Shown here: in pieces, positions 2,403-18,383 of the stretch
How the letters are laid out: every line of letters starts with the position of its first letter
Position numbering within the stretch: the stretch's first letter is position 1
NCBI GenBank assembly: GCA_030641715.1
Contig: DAOWGX010000017.1
Coordinates: forward strand, 1 to 39,090
DNA from: Nanobdellota archaeon
GTDB lineage: Archaea; Nanobdellota; Nanobdellia; Pacearchaeales; GW2011-AR1
Direction of reading: 5' to 3'
Length of the DNA stretch: 39,090 bases
The notes under the pieces: generated by a model
What the model was told of the DNA's origin: nothing
The model's input: only the letters and a program-made list of their open reading frames with translations
Database searches by the model: none
Translations under genes and position numbers: made by a program

Positions 2403-5400
2403 TTAAGCCTTTCCCCTGATTGTATTGGGGGTATTAATTGAACTAGAAAATTCCTTTCCCTTCTTCCCAACCTTCCGAAGAACCGTAAAAATTAACCCAG
2501 CAGCGATGAGAATTATAGTTACAATTGTAGGGTAGAACCAAGGGTTATTTTCTTTTATGTCGTCGACGATTTTTCCCGTTAGGGTTTTATCTTTTTTTAG
2601 GATTTCTGATTTGATTTCTTCGTTGATTTCCTGGATAAAAATATCCGCCCTGATTGAGGTCACGTTGTCGAGTCGGACTAATAAGTCATAAAAATTGTCG
2701 TCGTCGAGGTTGACTTTCCATTCTTCACCGACGGAGAGCGTTTTGGTTTGAGGTTCCGACGAGATTGTTATCGTCGCTGTTTTGTTGTCAGCGTTAAGAT
2801 TATCTATTTTTAATTGGTGGGATTCGGTTCCGGATTTGAAGTCTAGTTTCCAGAATCTTCCGAGTTGTCGAGAGTAACCTTGTCGGAGGTTTGATTCGGT
2901 AGGATAATATATTGGTGAGCCTGAGGAGCCTGATTGAGCGGTTGTTTCTGTTACAGGGGCAGATATACTGAAACTTACATTCTGAGTATTATTAACATTT
3001 CCTATAGTATCATTACAATAGAAATTTGTGACATAATCTCCATCAGGTAAACTTAAAGATTTTGTAAATGTCTGGTTATCAGAACTTTCCATAGAGGTAT
3101 TTGTCACACCTGCATCAAAGGAGTATAAACAAGTCCCATTCTCATTTAAAGTTGCGTTTAATAAAATCGAAGAAGTTGTAAATGATTGTTCTGATAAGGG
3201 CGAATTAATTATAATATTTGGAGAGAGTGTATCTTTAAAAAAGGTAATACTTGTTGAATTTAAATTTCCGACAGTATCATTAATATAAACCGTCCATGTA
3301 TTAATTCCCTCACTACTAACCAATCCTGTCCAATTTGTACCACAAGCCATAGCCGTCGAGTTCCAACCTCCGCCATTATTAGACCACCAACATTTGTCTG
3401 AATTAAGTTCTATAAAAGTATAATTCAAAACAGAGACATTAGTATTATAACTTATATTAGTTGGATAAACTATTATAACTTGGGGAGCAATTGTATCTAT
3501 ATCATAACTTAAAAAAATAGGAACATAATTATAAATTTCATTTATCAATTTAAAAGTCCCCTCAATAGGATATAAAATATAATCAGCTAAATTCCTTAGA
3601 CTCTTTAAAGTTCCATCATTACCCCATCCCGAACCATTAATAGTTCCATTAATTCCATTAACCCCCAAATTATGTGCAACAGTTCCATTGTTTTCATTAA
3701 AATTATAATGCCAAATTGCATCATCTTCTGTCTTAGCCAATGTTTTTGCTCTGATTGTATTTTCTCCTGAATTAAGAATCCCTTTAAAATAAAAATAATC
3801 TGAATTTTCATTTGCATTACTCATTCCTATTGTCCCAGCAGGGTATCCTTGATATTCATATTCTCTTGCGATATACCATGTAGTTCCATTATCTTCAGAA
3901 GCTACAATTACTGTTTTATCTGCTTGATAATAACTAAAATACATAACATCATTACTGTCCTTAACAGCATCATACCACCACCCTGTAATATCATGTTCAA
4001 ATACAGTTTCATAATTTACATCATCACTAGTTCTAAAAATTTTGCTATAACCAAGAGAAACATCTTCCCCATAAATTCTATATTCTTGTGTGAAAATTAA
4101 AGTTGTAGGTTGCCAAAAATATCCTAAATCCATATATTCTTGAAGTTTAACCCATGTAGTTCCATTATCAACACTTCTTAATAAATAGGTTGCATTTTGA
4201 TGTGTCGGAGTGCTATCACCAACAGAAACATAAACGTAATCACTATAGGGATCTACTTTAACAAAATGGATATGTCTTGCGTCCATACTATCATTATATA
4301 TAGTTTCGCATGTTTCAAAGTTATCCGAACTTCTATAAACAATCCCACTGTGATCTCCGGGATTCATATCTCCGTAAGTAGCAAAGAAAGTATAGTGCCC
4401 ATCAGAAGATTCGCTCATCCCATGCCCATGCCAAAAATAATTTTCTGAAAATGGCATTGTAAGAACTATTGAAAATTTTGTTAAATTATAACTTCCATCC
4501 CCATTTGGAGGGCTTCTATATAATTCATCCATACACCCAATATAGGTATAATTGTTTAAATCTTGATAAATTCCATTACAAGATGACTCTGTAAAATTAT
4601 AATTATTTACAAACGTACCACCATTATCATTGCTAAAATATGTTTTATTTTGAAATAAAACCAATAAAGATCCGTCGTTAAGGATCCAATTAAACCCCTT
4701 TTGTGCTAAATTTTTTGTTTCAACTGGTCTTACGTATTCGCCATCATTCCAAAGTAAATGATTTATTTCATCCCCACTTAAAGTTCTATTATATGTTTTG
4801 ATAAAATCTATACTACCATTGAAATAATCTCCATAACTCCCTTGATAATTAGAACCAATGACCCAATCATCCTCTGCAAAAAGACCTTCCCCAGCCTTAC
4901 TAATACTGGTCTTTACTGGATTTACACCAACTTTATAAGTAGTATTGTATTGATCTTCATACATTGTTTGATTTCCAGAAGTATCGTTGTAAGTACCTGC
5001 GATAAAAGACCAATTTTTATCTATACCATTGTTCCATAATGAACTTCTTGCAAGAGCAGAATCATTTGCACTAACAAAATATAAAACATCATCATAAATA
5101 TAAATCTTCGTTCCCCATTTTTGACTAAATAAATTATGACTTCCCGTATTATTATTTGACTTAAATTTTATAATGGTGGTAATATCTTGACTTGGAATTG
5201 ATAATTGATTTTCCAAAATTACATTATCATCAATTCCATCAAAATCTAACCAAGTATTATCATAAACTTGTGCAGTAAAATTAGCCAAACTCTGGTTATT
5301 TAAAGAAACATTATTAGAGTAATTTCCAGTAATATTTTGAAGTAAATTTCCTGCACTTACTAAATTAATCCCAACAAAAAACACAACCATCAACAACCCA

Positions 5401-5505
5401 ATCAGAAATCCTTTTCTAAAACCAAAACCTTTTTTATTATCTCTCGAGGCTCTTCGCCCCCCCCCCTAATACCGTATCAGCGACTGTAGGCTCCTCTTTT
5501 CTCAT
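2403..5505 (-). CDS. Large surface/secreted protein: LamG-like domain + Asp-box (BNR/sialidase-like) repeats + Ig-like repeats + C-terminal TM anchor; start interrupted by a G10 frameshift
   Basis: ORF track gives 2403-5396 from TTG. LamG-like WLDFDGIDDNVILENQ...; Asp-boxes SNDNGGTF, SVDNGTTW, SEDNGTTW; C-terminal TM plus basic tail. Upstream ATG at 5505, ~26 bp from a TTTATAAA box, is linked to the body only if the G tract (5457-5466) is 9 or 12 long. Confidence 0.85.
5457..5466 (-). repeat. G10 homopolymer (C10 on + strand) near the 5' end of the LamG/Asp-box gene
   Basis: Ten consecutive C on the + strand; the coding strand reads TTA-GGGGGGGGGG-CGAAGAGCC. Confidence 0.95.
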
Positions 5506-5525
5506 AACCTTTTTAACAGTTCCGT

Positions 5526-5536
5526 GTTTATAAAAC
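5526..5536 (-). promoter_or_regulatory. Putative TATA box for the LamG/Asp-box gene
   Basis: Minus strand reads GTTTTATAAAC, centred ~26 bp upstream of the ATG at 5505; this spacing recurs at many other genes in the window. Confidence 0.55.
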
Positions 5537-5585
5537 TTACCTCCTAAATTCCAAAACATTTTTATCTAATAATAATAAACAAATC

Positions 5586-5870
5586 TTATTTTGCTAATCC
5601 CTTCAACGTCCCGCTCACCTTCTCAATCCCAATCCCCGCCAAAGCCAACGCCGCCCGAACATTCTCCAACGATTTCACCAAACAACTCCCGACCAACTTA
5701 CCCGGAAAATCCTCTGTCCGAACTCTCATATAAGCCGCTTCCGCAAATCCAAGAACCCCGACGTATTCCAAAATCGCAGCTTCAACTTTATCATTCGTCG
5801 CCCTAACTAAAAAATACCTTCTCTTATCTCTCGCCGAGGGTTTAAGACTTAGTTTGTTTCTTTTTGCCAT
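5586..5870 (-). CDS. rnp2: RNase P protein component 2 (Pop5/Rnp2-like)
   Basis: MAKRNKLSLKPSARDKRRYFLVRATNDKVEAAILEYVGVLGFAEA...KLVGSCLVKSLENVRAALALAGI; fits the Pop5/Rpp14 family and the expected Pop5-psmA-SBDS gene order. Confidence 0.8.
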   Translation of the reverse strand: MAKRNKLSLKPSARDKRRYFLVRATNDKVEAAILEYVGVLGFAEAAYMRVRTEDFPGKLVGSCLVKSLENVRAALALAGIGIEKVSGTLKGLAK

Positions 5871-8625
5871 GTTTATCTTTGGAAATTAAACTTTTTAATT
5901 TCTTCCTATTTAACCTAAGGACAACGCAAAGGATTAGGATTAAAATAACGACCAAAAACACTATCACCCAAAGATAATTTTCAATCTCCATAATCTCAAC
6001 CACCGCCTCCTCGACAACCACATTCCCTGTAATAACATCAGGAGTCTTCATCTCGATCGCCTCATTAATTAGCTGAACCGTCAACTCCACCTCGCCAGCA
6101 ACTATCTTGTTCACCTTAATAAACAAATCGTAATAAACCGGCGACGTTAAATTCAATTTAACAGACTGCCCAACACCTAATGTTAAAATTATCGGATCGC
6201 TTTCAATAATAAGATTAACATAATCAACACCAACATTATCAATCGTCAATAAATGTCTTCCGCCCTTAAAATCAAAAATACTAAAATTAATCTTCTCATT
6301 ATTCTTCAAATTTCTAGTATACCCTGTAGAAATTTCGGCAACACTGACATCATAAATTTTTGGTGTGACAGAATTAACTCCCCCACCACCGCCTCCAGAA
6401 GTACTAGGGATAACAACCGCGGGGGCAGTTATAGTAAAGCTATTCTCCTCGGAAGAATTTACATTCCCTGCCAAGTCACTACAATTAATTTTCCAAACAT
6501 AAGTTCCCGGAGTAAATGTCTGGCTAAACGATTGTGTCACAGAAGCATCCATAGAAGAATTAGACAACTGAACAATTCCACCAATAATTAAACTACAACT
6601 ACCAATATTGTCGTCGGAAACGTTAAAACTAAACGTCCTCGAAATAGAATTCGACGTCGCACTCGAAGGCAAACTTGTTAATGCCAAACTTGGAGGGGTC
6701 ACATCGTAAATCACACTAAAATTGTTCTCCGCCGAAGAATTATAAGAGGCATTATTTACCCCCAAACAATTCCAACTATAATCTCCTTCTTTATCAAATG
6801 TCCAATTAAAAATGGTCGTATTATCAAACCCAGAAATTGCCTCAGTTAAATTGTGAACCAGATTACCACTCGAATTCCACAAATAAAAGGTCATATTACT
6901 TAGTTCACTATTCGTATCAGAAAGAACCTGACAACTAAAATTAGTAGTGTTAATATTCGTGTAATTTTCATCTGAAGGCGACAGCAAGTTCGCAGAGACT
7001 CCCCCGATTGTTAAACTATAATTCGTCGGAGCAAAATCAGAATTACCCTCACTATCGGCAGCCAAACAATTCCATAAATAAGTATCTTCCCCTATGTTTG
7101 TTAGACTAAATAAAGTTTCATTCGCTGTTCCCCTCAAGTTTTTCGTTTCATTATAATAAAGTCCCGTCGAATTCCAAACCTTTAAGGTTATATTTGCTAA
7201 CTGCCAATCCGTCGCATTGCAGGTAAGGGTTTGATTAACCGTTAAATTAACTTTATTATGTTTCGGTGAAACAAGTGTAACATTCGGAGTGTCGACGTCC
7301 AAGGACAAGATAGCAGAATAGATATCAATTCTCGAATAATTTAATCCGCTTCCAGAAATATCGTCGACCAATACACCAGTTTGATTAAGTATGGTCTCTA
7401 TTTCTTGAGGAGTCATTAGTTGACTTGTCAAGTTTAAAAATTGATTAAGGATTGCTATTGCCCCTGCAACCATCGGTGCTGCCATGGATGTCCCGGAGAA
7501 TGCAATATACGCTCCGTCTTTATATGTCGAACAAATTCTGTTAGAATCCATATTTCCAGGGGAACAACTTCCACCCCCTTCCAGCGTCCCTCCCGTCGCA
7601 AATAATTGAGTCATGTTATTCCTATTTGAAAAAGACGAAATACTGTTAGTTTTTGTTGATGAAGCAATTGGAGTCACATTTTCAATACATGCAGGAACTC
7701 CGATATGCGTTGTGTTTCCATCATTTCCAGAAGCAACTATAACAGAAATATTTTCAGCAACAGCAGCGTCGATAGCGTTCCGTAATCCAGAGAATTCAAC
7801 ATCACAATAACTGTCTCTTAAAAGGCTTGAGCCCCCATCAGACAATCCTAAACTCATTGTAATCACAGAAATATTATACACAGAAGCATTATTCACGCAC
7901 CAATCAATGGCAGAAATTATCATATCTGAAGTTCCATCTCCAGAATCATTAAAAACTTTCACCGCAACAATACTTACATTCGGAGCCATTCCAAAAATCC
8001 CTCCCGATGCCCCGACAATTCCTGCAACATGAGTTCCGTGTCCATTATAGTCCATAGGATTATTATCGTTGTCCCCAAAATCGTATCCTGCTATAACTCT
8101 TGAACAATTTCCCGCAAGAAAACTTTCACTCGAACAACCTCCTAAATCGGGATGAGAATAATTAACTCCTGTATCAATAACACAAACACTTTGATGAATT
8201 CCTGTGAGATTCAAGGAATTAATTTGCTTCGGCCAAATAGAACTTGTATTTGTTATATCAACAGCGTCGTCCAATAAAATTTCTATAGGATAATTGTAAC
8301 TTATCTCTTCTACATAATTTTCTTTTAGAAGGTATTCAATTTCTTCTTTAGTCAGCTCGGCGGAAAATGCATTTGAAGAACTAAATTTATTCTTTATCTT
8401 TTTATCCAACTTGTGCATGATTTTATTCTCGTTGAAATTATTAATTGTCGAAGCTATAATGTTACTATTTTCATTATCTTTTAATCGAACAATTACATTA
8501 ACTTTCCCCTCTTCTGCCAACTTTTCCAAAACGTTATCACTTATTTTTTCTTCTAAAGAAGGTTGCGAACTAACTACTGCAAAAAGCAATATCAAAATCG
8601 TCAAAGACCAAAAACCAAGTTTCAT
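5842..8625 (-). CDS. Subtilisin-like S8 serine protease with Ig-like repeats and C-terminal TM anchor
   Basis: Complete triad motifs: Asp in VCVIDTGVNYSHPDL, His in NGHGTHVAGIVGA, Ser in FSGTSMAAPMVAGA, plus IVASGNDGN. Signal peptide MKLGFWSLTILILLFAVVSS. C-terminal TM plus basic tail. Confidence 0.96.
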   Translation of the reverse strand: MKLGFWSLTILILLFAVVSSQPSLEEKISDNVLEKLAEEGKVNVIVRLKDNENSNIIASTINNFNENKIMHKLDKKIKNKFSSSNAFSAELTKEEIEYLLKENYVEEISYNYPIEILLDDAVDITNTSSIWPKQINSLNLTGIHQSVCVIDTGVNYSHPDLGGCSSESFLAGNCSRVIAGYDFGDNDNNPMDYNGHGTHVAGIVGASGGIFGMAPNVSIVAVKVFNDSGDGTSDMIISAIDWCVNNASVYNISVITMSLGLSDGGSSLLRDSYCDVEFSGLRNAIDAAVAENISVIVASGNDGNTTHIGVPACIENVTPIASSTKTNSISSFSNRNNMTQLFATGGTLEGGGSCSPGNMDSNRICSTYKDGAYIAFSGTSMAAPMVAGAIAILNQFLNLTSQLMTPQEIETILNQTGVLVDDISGSGLNYSRIDIYSAILSLDVDTPNVTLVSPKHNKVNLTVNQTLTCNATDWQLANITLKVWNSTGLYYNETKNLRGTANETLFSLTNIGEDTYLWNCLAADSEGNSDFAPTNYSLTIGGVSANLLSPSDENYTNINTTNFSCQVLSDTNSELSNMTFYLWNSSGNLVHNLTEAISGFDNTTIFNWTFDKEGDYSWNCLGVNNASYNSSAENNFSVIYDVTPPSLALTSLPSSATSNSISRTFSFNVSDDNIGSCSLIIGGIVQLSNSSMDASVTQSFSQTFTPGTYVWKINCSDLAGNVNSSEENSFTITAPAVVIPSTSGGGGGGVNSVTPKIYDVSVAEISTGYTRNLKNNEKINFSIFDFKGGRHLLTIDNVGVDYVNLIIESDPIILTLGVGQSVKLNLTSPVYYDLFIKVNKIVAGEVELTVQLINEAIEMKTPDVITGNVVVEEAVVEIMEIENYLWVIVFLVVILILILCVVLRLNRKKLKSLISKDKHGKKKQTKS

Positions 8626-15012: not shown

Positions 15013-15066
15013 TTAAATGTTTTTTAGACAATTCTAGACGGATACCGCCAACTAAAAAACATTTAA
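15013..15066. repeat. Perfect 15-bp inverted repeat (arms 15013-15027 and 15052-15066, 24-nt spacer)
   Basis: TTAAATGTTTTTTAG ... CTAAAAAACATTTAA; the right arm runs into the TATA-like TTTAAATA preceding ATG 15094. Confidence 0.85.
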
Positions 15067-15093
15067 ATATGAGGGATTTGTTGTATTATTAAT

Positions 15094-18000
15094 ATGAAAA
15101 AGAAAAGAGGTTTGAAGCTTTCTCCAAATTGGGGGGGGGGCGAAGGGATTTTAATAAGATATCATTGTTATTCTTAATAACTTCTATTTCTATTATATTT
15201 ATAGTATCTGCACTCCCGACTTTAACTTTTGTTTCACCAATATTAGCGAATAATTCTTATACAAATAATAATTGGACTTTTGTGAATATAACATCAGATG
15301 AAAATTTGAATCAATCATTATTAGAATGGGGCAATTCTTCCGGATTTACAAATGTTAGTATGAGTAATAGTTCTTTAACTAACTGGTATAAAAATATGAC
15401 AAATCTTGCTGATTATACTTATACTTATAATTATACAACATGGGCTCAGAATACAAGTGGGAACTGGAGCCAATCAGGAAGACGCTTTGTGACTGCAGAT
15501 ACAATAAATCCAAATATAAATTTTACAAGTCCAACACCAAGTAATGGCTCATCTCAAAATAATACTAATATTTTTGTAAATGTTTCTGCGAATGATACTA
15601 ATAATATTTCAACATTTATTGATTTTGACAATTCTCTTGTTGGTTGGTGGAGATTTAGTGAATCTTCTTTGAATAATGGTTCAACTCTGGAGGATTTTTC
15701 TGGATATGGAAATAATGGAACTGTTTATGCAAATGATAGCTCTGGAAATCCAAGAGATATGAGTACTTCTGCTGGTTATTTTGGTAGGGCTGGTTATTTT
15801 GGTAGGGCTGGTTATTTTGATGGGGATGGAGATTATGTTGATTTGACAGATATAAATTTGAATGAATGGACTTGGACATCATGGATTTACACAAAAAGTT
15901 ATACTGGTGGCTGGCTTATGCCTATAGGTTCACGAGAAGGAGGTCCTGGGGATTTTATAGGAAGAAAAAGTGATGGGACTTTTAGAGTTTATGATGGTGA
16001 CAATAGTGAGATTTCTACTGATGTTCCTAACCTAAATCAATGGGAATTTTGGACAGTTGTATATAATACAACAAATTATCTTTTTTATATAAATGGAACC
16101 TTTAAAGGTAATTCTCCTGTTGCAACTGGAGAAAATTTTGATTTTGATTTAATTGGAGACGTATTTACAGGTGCTTATGATTTCAATGGCACAATCGATG
16201 ATGTAATGATTTTCAACAGAAGCTTAAGTGTAGCAGAAATCCAAGCACTTTATGCAAATCCTTCATCAAGATATTTAGAAAAGGATTTTACAGGCTTAAG
16301 TTGGGGCACTTATACATTTAAAGCTTATGCTCAAGATTTAGCTGGAAATGTGAATTCGACTGAAACAAGAGAAGTTGAAATAATAGAAAGAGTTATCCAA
16401 ATAGATTCCCCAGCTTATAATGATAGAGACTATCTTTCTCCAATAGATTTGAATGTGACAACAGGTTTTTATGCATCTTGTAAATGGACTAATGATAGTG
16501 GAGCAACTAATTATTCTATGAGTACAACTGACAATAGAATATTTAATTATACTGCATCTTTATCTATTGGAAGTTATACCATTGATTTTTATTGCAATGA
16601 CAGTACAGAAGAGGTCACAAACCAGACAAATTTTACAATAGTTGACCACTTGACTTATTATGTAGATAATTCTTCTGCTGCTTGTTCAGATTCTTATGAT
16701 AAAAACTATGCAACAAATGAAACCACTCCTTTTTGTAATATAAATAGTACTATTGGTCTTGCAAGTGCTAGTGATGAAATAGTTGTTAAGTATATTAACG
16801 GGGGATATTGTGAAGGAATAAATGTTGGTAGTTATGGTATAAATAGAACTACAAGTTCACCAATAATTATAAGGGGTGAAAATGATTCTCAAAGAACAAT
16901 ATTAAATGGAACTTGTGCTTCTCAAGTTAATGGCATTAGACTAACAGAAGAAGACAATTACATCTTTAGGTCTTTTTATATATATAATTTTAGCAATGAT
17001 GCTATGAATATCAAAGGAATTTCATTAGGGATTATATTTGAAAATATAACAGCAGTAGATAATGGTTATGCACATGAGTCTGGCAGTGGAGATGGAATTT
17101 CTTATCATAATGCTTCCACAGGTTACTCAAAAAATTTAAATGTAACAGGTGGCTATAAATCAACAATAGTAGATATAGAAAATTCTATAAGCAATTACAC
17201 AAATATTTATGGAAGAAATAACAGATTGTATGGGATTTTCTTTTATGGAGCTGGGAGTGGGAGAGGTTCAACCCCAAACGATATAACCTTACATTATGTT
17301 TGGAATGCTACAATAGAAGATTCGCCAGGATGTTATTGGTCTGAGGTTCAGTCTCATGCATATAATATAATTTGTAATAATATCTCTGGCGAAGCATTTT
17401 ATTTTGCTAATAGGGAAAATTCAGTTGAGTCATTTAATATAACAACAAACGGAGGTGTTTCTATAAACATAACAAATACCGGCAGTTATAATATTAGTTT
17501 AAAAGATGGAAGATTTAATGAAAATATAACTTTAGTTAATTCAACAAATGTAACCATTGTTAATGTAAGTTATGATATTTCTAATGAAAGTGTTGGTTCA
17601 GATTCTATCTTAACAAGAAAATGGTATCTTGATATAAGTGCAAATCTAGAAAATGTAACCATTTCTTGGACAAATGTTTCTGGCTCTTTATTAGGTTCTT
17701 CTTTGACAAATTCATCTCTTATAATTCCAAAACAGGAATTAACTGATTATATTAATAATGGGGGAACAAAAACATATTATTCAAATTATGCAATAACTGC
17801 CTCAAAATCTGGATATGATTCTCAAACCCAAAGCGTGAATATGTCAACAAATAGAGAGATTAGTTTTAGTTTGAGCCCGACAACCACAGAAGAAGAAACA
17901 ACAACTCTTCAAAGTGGTGGAGAACTACCAACTTACAAACCAACCCAAAAACAATTACAAGAAGGTTATGAAAAAGGTTTGAGGAAGAATTATAAGATGA

Positions 18001-18383
18001 AGTTTAACGTAAATAACGAATCTCACGAATTAAAAGTTGATGATGTAGGGGATAAAATGGTTACGATTACAATTTCGAGCGAGCCGCAGACTTTTGATTT
18101 GGGTGTTAATGAAACTAAGAAGTTGGATTTGGATAGCGACGGGTTTTATGATTTGGAAGTTTTTTTGAGAAGTATAAGTGGGTTTTCTTATTGGAGGAAG
18201 GCGAATTTGGTTGTTAGATTGGTTAGGGCAGAAGTTCCCTCCGAAGAGATTACGGAAAAGGAAGGGGGGCAAAAAATAATAGAAAATGTTATTGTCGAGG
18301 AATCTAATTTATGGTTGTGGGTTGTTTTGGGGTCGGGTTTTGTTTTGGTTGTTCTTCTGATTTTTAGAAAAAAGAAGAAATAA
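15094..18383 (+). CDS. Large surface/secreted protein: LamG domain, Ig-like region, parallel beta-helix-like region, C-terminal TM anchor; start interrupted by a G10 frameshift
   Basis: ORF track gives 15129-18383 from TTG. LamG motif AGYFDGDGDYVDLTDINLNEWTWTSWIY, repetitive beta-helix-like segment, C-terminal TM LWLWVVLGSGFVLVVLLIFRKKKK. ATG 15094, ~26 bp from TTTAAATA, joins the body only if the G tract is 8 or 11 long. Confidence 0.85.
15131..15140 (+). repeat. G10 homopolymer near the 5' end of the LamG/beta-helix gene
   Basis: AAATT-GGGGGGGGGG-CGAAGGGAT. Confidence 0.95.
15771..15824 (+). repeat. 18-bp in-frame tandem repeat (GCTGGTTATTTTGGTAGG x2 plus a diverged third copy)
   Basis: Encodes AGYFGR-AGYFGR-AGYFDG at the LamG strand motif. 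Confidence 0.9.

Follow-up and report, generated by a model that had tools for sequence, protein, structure and literature searches.

The window, a stretch of 39,090 nucleotides of contig DAOWGX010000017.1 from a Nanobdellota archaeon (assembly GCA_030641715.1), carries on its minus strand a gene for a LamG surface protein in which 10 consecutive G residues (positions 5457 to 5466) separate the start codon from the body of the gene and break the reading frame. We consider it likely, judging from the sequence, that this G10 tract is a simple-sequence phase-variation switch operating by slipped-strand mispairing and that it belongs to a multilocus contingency system in a DPANN archaeon. The archaeon itself is probably symbiotic and, to judge from its family, most probably Pacearchaeota-like.

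Results

A G10 tract breaks the frame of a LamG surface protein gene

A first-pass annotation had proposed a phase-variable start for this gene, with a TATA-like sequence, an ATG at 5505, the G10 tract, and CGAAG following one another on the minus strand. The sequence is exactly as described there, except that the TATA box (TTTATAAA, 5527 to 5534) starts 29 nt before the ATG and not at a distance of about 26 bp. This is the spacing of a leaderless gene. The 5′ module upstream of the tract consists of the ATG and 12 codons (MRKEEPTVADTVL, 5467 to 5505), which would yield the peptide RKEEPTVADTVL. After the tract and CGAAG comes the body frame (2403 to 5456; RRASRDNKKGFGFRKGF), whose 1,017 codons are out of frame with the ATG at G10. 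The body comprises a hydrophobic signal segment (about 5352 to 5411), a Laminin_G_3 domain, a conserved C-terminal domain, and a transmembrane (TM) anchor. Laminin_G_3 is its sole Pfam domain, so that only the first half of the earlier label of LamG/Asp-box protein holds; no Asp-box model passed an E value of 0.001.

We then varied the length of the tract in silico. At G10, the ATG frame encodes 22 amino acids (MRKEEPTVADTVLGGGAKSLER, followed by a stop codon), and at 7, 8, 11, or 13 G it encodes only 21 to 34. At G9 or G12, it encodes 1,033 or 1,034 amino acids, in agreement with the proposal that the full protein is reached only with 9 or 12 G. The ATG at 5559 had been said to give the same result, and it does lie in the same frame as the ATG at 5505. 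As at known contingency loci, gain or loss of a unit toggles the frame of an otherwise intact gene.

Five genes of one genome share this layout

Dinucleotide shuffling predicts 0.03 G10 tracts in the window, and there are two. Runs of 5, 6, 7, and 8 G number 42, 5, 1, and 2, respectively; there are none of 9 G and two of 10 G. The run at 5457 to 5466 is a long homopolymer within a coding region. The genome (G000), of which the window is contig C10, is a metagenome-assembled genome (MAG) from short reads, a draft of 731 kb in 30 contigs that is 84% complete. Exactly five tracts of at least 10 G occur in the whole assembly, at C4:20156, C10:5457, C10:15131, C17:10317 (G11), and C27:11653. All five have an ATG 34 to 43 nt upstream of the tract and a TATA box 29 or 32 nt before the ATG. 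In each, C[G/A]AAG comes after the tract, and the signal-peptide hydrophobic stretch of a long protein rich in Asn, Ser, and Thr begins immediately behind it. The C-terminal domain of the window protein is matched in all five genes or in the open reading frame (ORF) just downstream. Every one of these tracts therefore lies in a surface protein gene, and there are several such loci in the genome, as in contingency systems. Four of the five genes are out of frame, and the C17 gene (G11) is in frame. The length needed for an open frame is 9 or 12 G in the window gene and 8 or 11 G in the other out-of-frame genes. In length, the paralogues differ as 10 versus 11, and an orthologue in another genome has 9 in an interrupted tract; these are differences between assembled genes.

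The tracts of 8 or 9 G that we checked elsewhere in the genome mostly encode in-frame Gly pairs of other proteins, such as the LSGGERT motif of the Rad50 type. We considered the G9 tract on contig C19 as a further switch and rejected it, as it is in frame inside a SecD-like GLDLRGG motif and is unrelated.

The second tract gene of the window lies on the plus strand. Its TATA box (TTTAAATA, 15062 to 15069) is 32 nt before the ATG, and its 5′ module (MKKKRGLKLSPN plus a T, 15094 to 15130) leads into the G10 tract (15131 to 15140) and CGAAG, with the frame open only at 8 or 11 G. The body (15141 to 18383) has about 1,080 codons with a signal segment and a TM anchor, is out of frame with the ATG at G10, and, like that of the first gene, contains a Laminin_G_3 domain. 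It also contains an in-frame 18-bp tandem repeat (15771 to 15819; 2.7 copies, 100% match) encoding AGYFGR units, whose copy number may vary as well. Beside the first tract gene, a subtilase-family (Peptidase_S8) surface protein gene (5842 to 8625, minus strand) has the C-terminal domain common to the tract genes and an ordinary signal-peptide start without a tract.

Translation appears to start upstream of the tract

If translation started downstream of the tract, the tract would be untranslated. An ORF caller had in fact chosen an internal TTG at 5396, within the hydrophobic stretch, as had been noted in the first-pass annotation. However, a start at this TTG or at the ATG at 5390 would remove the charged n-region of the signal peptide, and in the other four bodies the hydrophobic stretch comes immediately after the tract, with no ATG in between. 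The distance from TATA box to ATG points to the upstream start in all five genes. Of 12 tract genes across six genomes, 10 have a distance of 29 or 32 nt, a spacing that reads as that of a leaderless archaeal transcript. In addition, the orthologue of the C4 gene in the sister species G012 has the same promoter, ATG, and first codons (MEKTSD), followed by a 9-G tract preceded by A, through which the frame is open. This gene therefore keeps a start and a peptide upstream of the tract in frame with the body. Finally, homologues without a tract have no upstream module; they begin with a short n-region of the MKK type that adjoins the hydrophobic stretch. The module of the tract genes, 11 to 15 codons long (8 in G053), is therefore an addition at the 5′ end. 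From the constant spacing, the G012 orthologue, and the tract-less homologues, we conclude that the upstream ATG is the real start as read from sequence. Translation from near 5388 to 5396, which would have spoken against a switch, is very unlikely.

Out-of-frame bodies appear to be under purifying selection

We asked whether the out-of-frame genes could be decaying pseudogenes. Apart from the tract, the bodies (about 580 to 1,090 codons) are free of lesions. The ratio of nonsynonymous to synonymous substitution (dN/dS) is about 0.055 (dS of 0.64) when the C-terminal domains of two out-of-frame genes, the window gene and the C27 gene, are compared, and it is about 0.21 for the C4 gene against its in-frame relatives, the C17 gene or the G012 orthologue; synonymous change is ample, although these values come from the best-aligned 80 codons, a high-identity choice that biases them low. 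With ratios of about 0.06 to 0.2, the out-of-frame bodies appear to be under purifying selection and thus are not old pseudogenes. What speaks for decay is that truncated 5′ relics with the same element are found nearby; even so, we regard it as the least plausible account of these genes.

The truncated copies have the promoter, the ATG, a tract of G6 to G9, and the start of the signal peptide, after which the frame ends. They are located at G000:C17:8756 (L104, position 8756), G035:C14 (L100, 8945), G053:C24:14497 (L098, 5498), and G053:C38:6760 (L099, 6765). Those in G000:C17 and G053 share a contig with complete tract genes. As a unit, the 5′ module seems either to recombine or to be lost.

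Tract length and frame vary among relatives

Sequences of at least 8 G followed by C[G/A]AAG were found in 3 of 16 genomes of the genus and in 13 of 186 genomes of the family, with 21 sites family-wide versus 4 for the reversed pattern. Twelve surface genes with a tract and a long body are distributed among G000 (five), G007, G012, G015, G053 (two), and G179 (two). Their tracts have 8, 9, 10, or 11 G, and six are in frame and six out of frame. The same fixed in-frame length in all relatives, which would have argued against a switch, is therefore not what we observed.

We also considered whether the peptide encoded by the element, WGGGRR, is kept for its function, and we rejected this. A search for W-GGG-[RQ]-R with any codons allowed gave a single match in the 16 genus genomes; the tract is therefore not maintained to encode a common peptide. 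Moreover, G053 reads the element in another frame, as GGGEG instead of GGGRR; what is alike is thus the DNA and not the peptide.

Other tracts of 9 or 10 G lie near the start of genes whose products are exported or are small membrane proteins; one of these tracts is in frame (L349, G138:C43) and one is out of frame (L122, G091:C19).

Long G tracts recur in reverse transcriptase genes of the family

Many of the long G tracts in the family are located in a reverse transcriptase (RT) gene (RVT_1, with GMPLGNLTSQ and YVDD motifs and, in some, a C-terminal HTH_40 domain). Named records place the tract-bearing RTs in Candidatus Pacearchaeota and Woesearchaeota. All 12 RT loci that we scanned have an adjacent near-repeat in which all or nearly all of the mismatches are at template A, with 17 of 17 (L113), 16 of 16, and 16 of 16 in the clearest cases. 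An RT together with template and variable repeats that differ at template A identifies these loci, by sequence, as diversity-generating retroelements (DGRs). The DGR loci with tracts are L107 to L116, L119, and L120, in genomes G085, G034, G117, G118, G175, G060, G176, G177, G173, G028, G172, and G045.

We counted 24 distinct RT tracts (G9 to G13). The loop that immediately precedes motif 4 holds 20 of them, and the remaining 4 directly follow motif 5. The frame is open in only 4 of the 24; of the 20 out-of-frame tracts, 11 deviate by one residue class and 9 by the other. This tally rests on pattern searches only. The best 80 RT matches among genome contigs, in which all 8 tracts of at least 7 G are in frame, are biased to intact frames and were therefore left out. 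Across 75 RTs, simple repeats are 18-fold enriched in the loop preceding motif 4 compared with the remainder of the gene. The type of repeat at this loop varies, being either a G tract or (AG)4-6, with C11 in one more RT. That different repeats occupy one site argues for selection on slippage rather than on the peptide. The DGR RT may possibly be a phase-variable mutator.

No RT (RVT_1) was detected in G000, which is 84% complete. A search of viral contigs for near-identical copies returned 54 RT relatives, none with a tract at the switch loop. One near-identical RT pair (L259 and L260; JAHJEM010000106 and JAHIYL010000154) has the same sequence, with no difference in length at the loop. The two genes, from two marine assemblies, also share an identical run of C10 outside the usual loop.

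Recoding and assembly error fit the set of tracts poorly

The main rival of phase variation is recoding, in which transcriptional slippage or ribosomal frameshifting at the tract would always yield some product, so that expression is tuned rather than switched. Tracts of 10 or 11 G are slippery for polymerases, and several bodies are conserved although they are out of frame; both points speak for recoding. However, programmed frameshifting and transcriptional realignment are characterized by a conserved direction of shift at a conserved site, whereas the shift required here varies. To be in frame, the window gene would have to lose one G and the others to gain one. Among the RT tracts, 11 deviate with one sign and 9 with the other, while 4 are in frame, and there are in-frame surface genes in C17, G007, G012, G015, and G053. 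A programmed directional frameshift is therefore disfavored, since the needed shift differs between genes, and we consider recoding in general to be improbable.

Alternatively, the true tracts could be constant and in frame (9 or 12, or 8 or 11), with the observed lengths being errors of assembly or sequencing. Homopolymers are a classic site of error, and the genome is an 84% complete draft from short reads. Such an error is possible at any single locus, but it is hard to sustain for the whole set, as four of the five loci would have to be wrong, and in two directions. The same would have to hold, in other assemblies, for the two out-of-frame genes of G179 and for 20 of the 24 RT tracts. Even if the length were miscounted, a rare tract that is always in the same place needs explaining. 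We consider error across the set to be quite improbable.

The 3′ flank of the tracts recurs in unrelated genes

CGA or CAA follows about 17 of some 40 tracts of at least 10 G in the family (about 40% by our own count), versus the few percent expected, in a family-wide search that was not conditioned on the 3′ flank. Both RT sites, surface genes, and a few intergenic sites have this flank, which is not tied to one reading frame. The recurrence is partly due to common ancestry, both within the first RT site and within the paralogous 5′ modules. A shared G(n)-CGA element is kept in three unrelated contexts and in different frames. Outside RT and surface genes, the flank is found at L079, L080, L087, and L093, often as ATC-G(n)-CGAA.

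It is conceivable, but doubtful, that these tracts form a two-tier system of multilocus diversification. The repeats would switch surface proteins and, in relatives, the hypermutating DGR RT itself, and G(n)-CGA would be a signal for a trans-acting factor that drives or restrains slippage.

Discussion

The phase-variable start that had been proposed for the window gene is supported by five genes of the same layout, by lengths and frames that differ among the paralogues and in the orthologue, and by intact bodies with low dN/dS. These features, together with the anatomy of the loci, were seen directly. In the mechanism that we propose, transcription would begin at or next to the ATG, giving a leaderless message, and translation would enter the short charged 5′ module and continue across the G tract to the signal peptide. 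Slippage during replication would add or remove one G. The complete, anchored LamG protein would be made and exported at 9 or 12 G, whereas at other lengths translation would stop after about 20 to 35 residues. With five such genes, a population would become a mixture of on and off combinations of surface proteins. We infer that slippage takes place in living cells, that it is reversible, and that it affects expression; the selective reason would be variation towards a host cell, a virus, or a predator.

Several points weigh against a phase-variable switch. The tract lengths are those of assemblies, and in a MAG a length called as G10 could be wrong by one residue. Some product could arise at any length if transcription slips on the tract. 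In addition, most genomes of the genus are without such tracts, and the tract is thus a lineage-specific device.

If phase variation is the correct reading, it would imply fluctuating selection on the cell surface, from hosts or viruses. If the frame of the DGR RT is switched as well, the mutator itself would be under stochastic control. The tracts could also cause gene callers and DGR surveys to miss or truncate these genes. According to a 2025 review, multilocus phase-variable genomes seem to be confined to pathogens, and how widespread they are among archaea is an open question (PMC11868660). A nonpathogenic DPANN archaeon with five tract genes in its genome would provide part of the answer. 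In the open-access literature, with subscription journals outside our search, we found no paper linking Pacearchaeota, Woesearchaeota, or DPANN archaea with repeat phase variation; those DPANN papers that we examined mention phase variation only in passing or in their references.

The DGR loci are like those of the DPANN archaea surveyed previously (PMC8144416) in having an RT with GMPLGNLTSQ and YVDD motifs and adjacent repeats with A-specific substitutions. They differ in that the RT genes have, at a fixed loop, a tract that breaks the frame; frameshifts or homopolymers are not mentioned in that survey. A 2010 survey of homopolymers at the 5′ ends of prokaryotic genes, in which 18 archaeal genomes were included, described poly(A) and poly(T) tracts of up to about 8 nt, and found no significantly closer placement to the 5′ end for poly(G) or poly(C) or for tracts longer than 8 nt (PMC2831843). 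The location at the 5′ end is common to both studies, whereas the tracts in our genome are of at least 10 G and exclusive to one gene class.

Slipped-strand phase variation in bacteria has been reviewed elsewhere (PMC11868660, PMC3711429). The genes described here resemble the bacterial loci in having a homopolymer of 8 to 13 G near the 5′ end of surface protein genes, a frame-dependent product, and several loci per genome with mixed frame states. Such poly(G) and poly(C) contingency loci are known in Neisseria, Campylobacter, and Helicobacter. In contrast to these, the present loci are candidates in an archaeon with leaderless TATA-box genes, and C[G/A]A(A) is conserved behind their tracts in genes that are unrelated and differ in reading frame.
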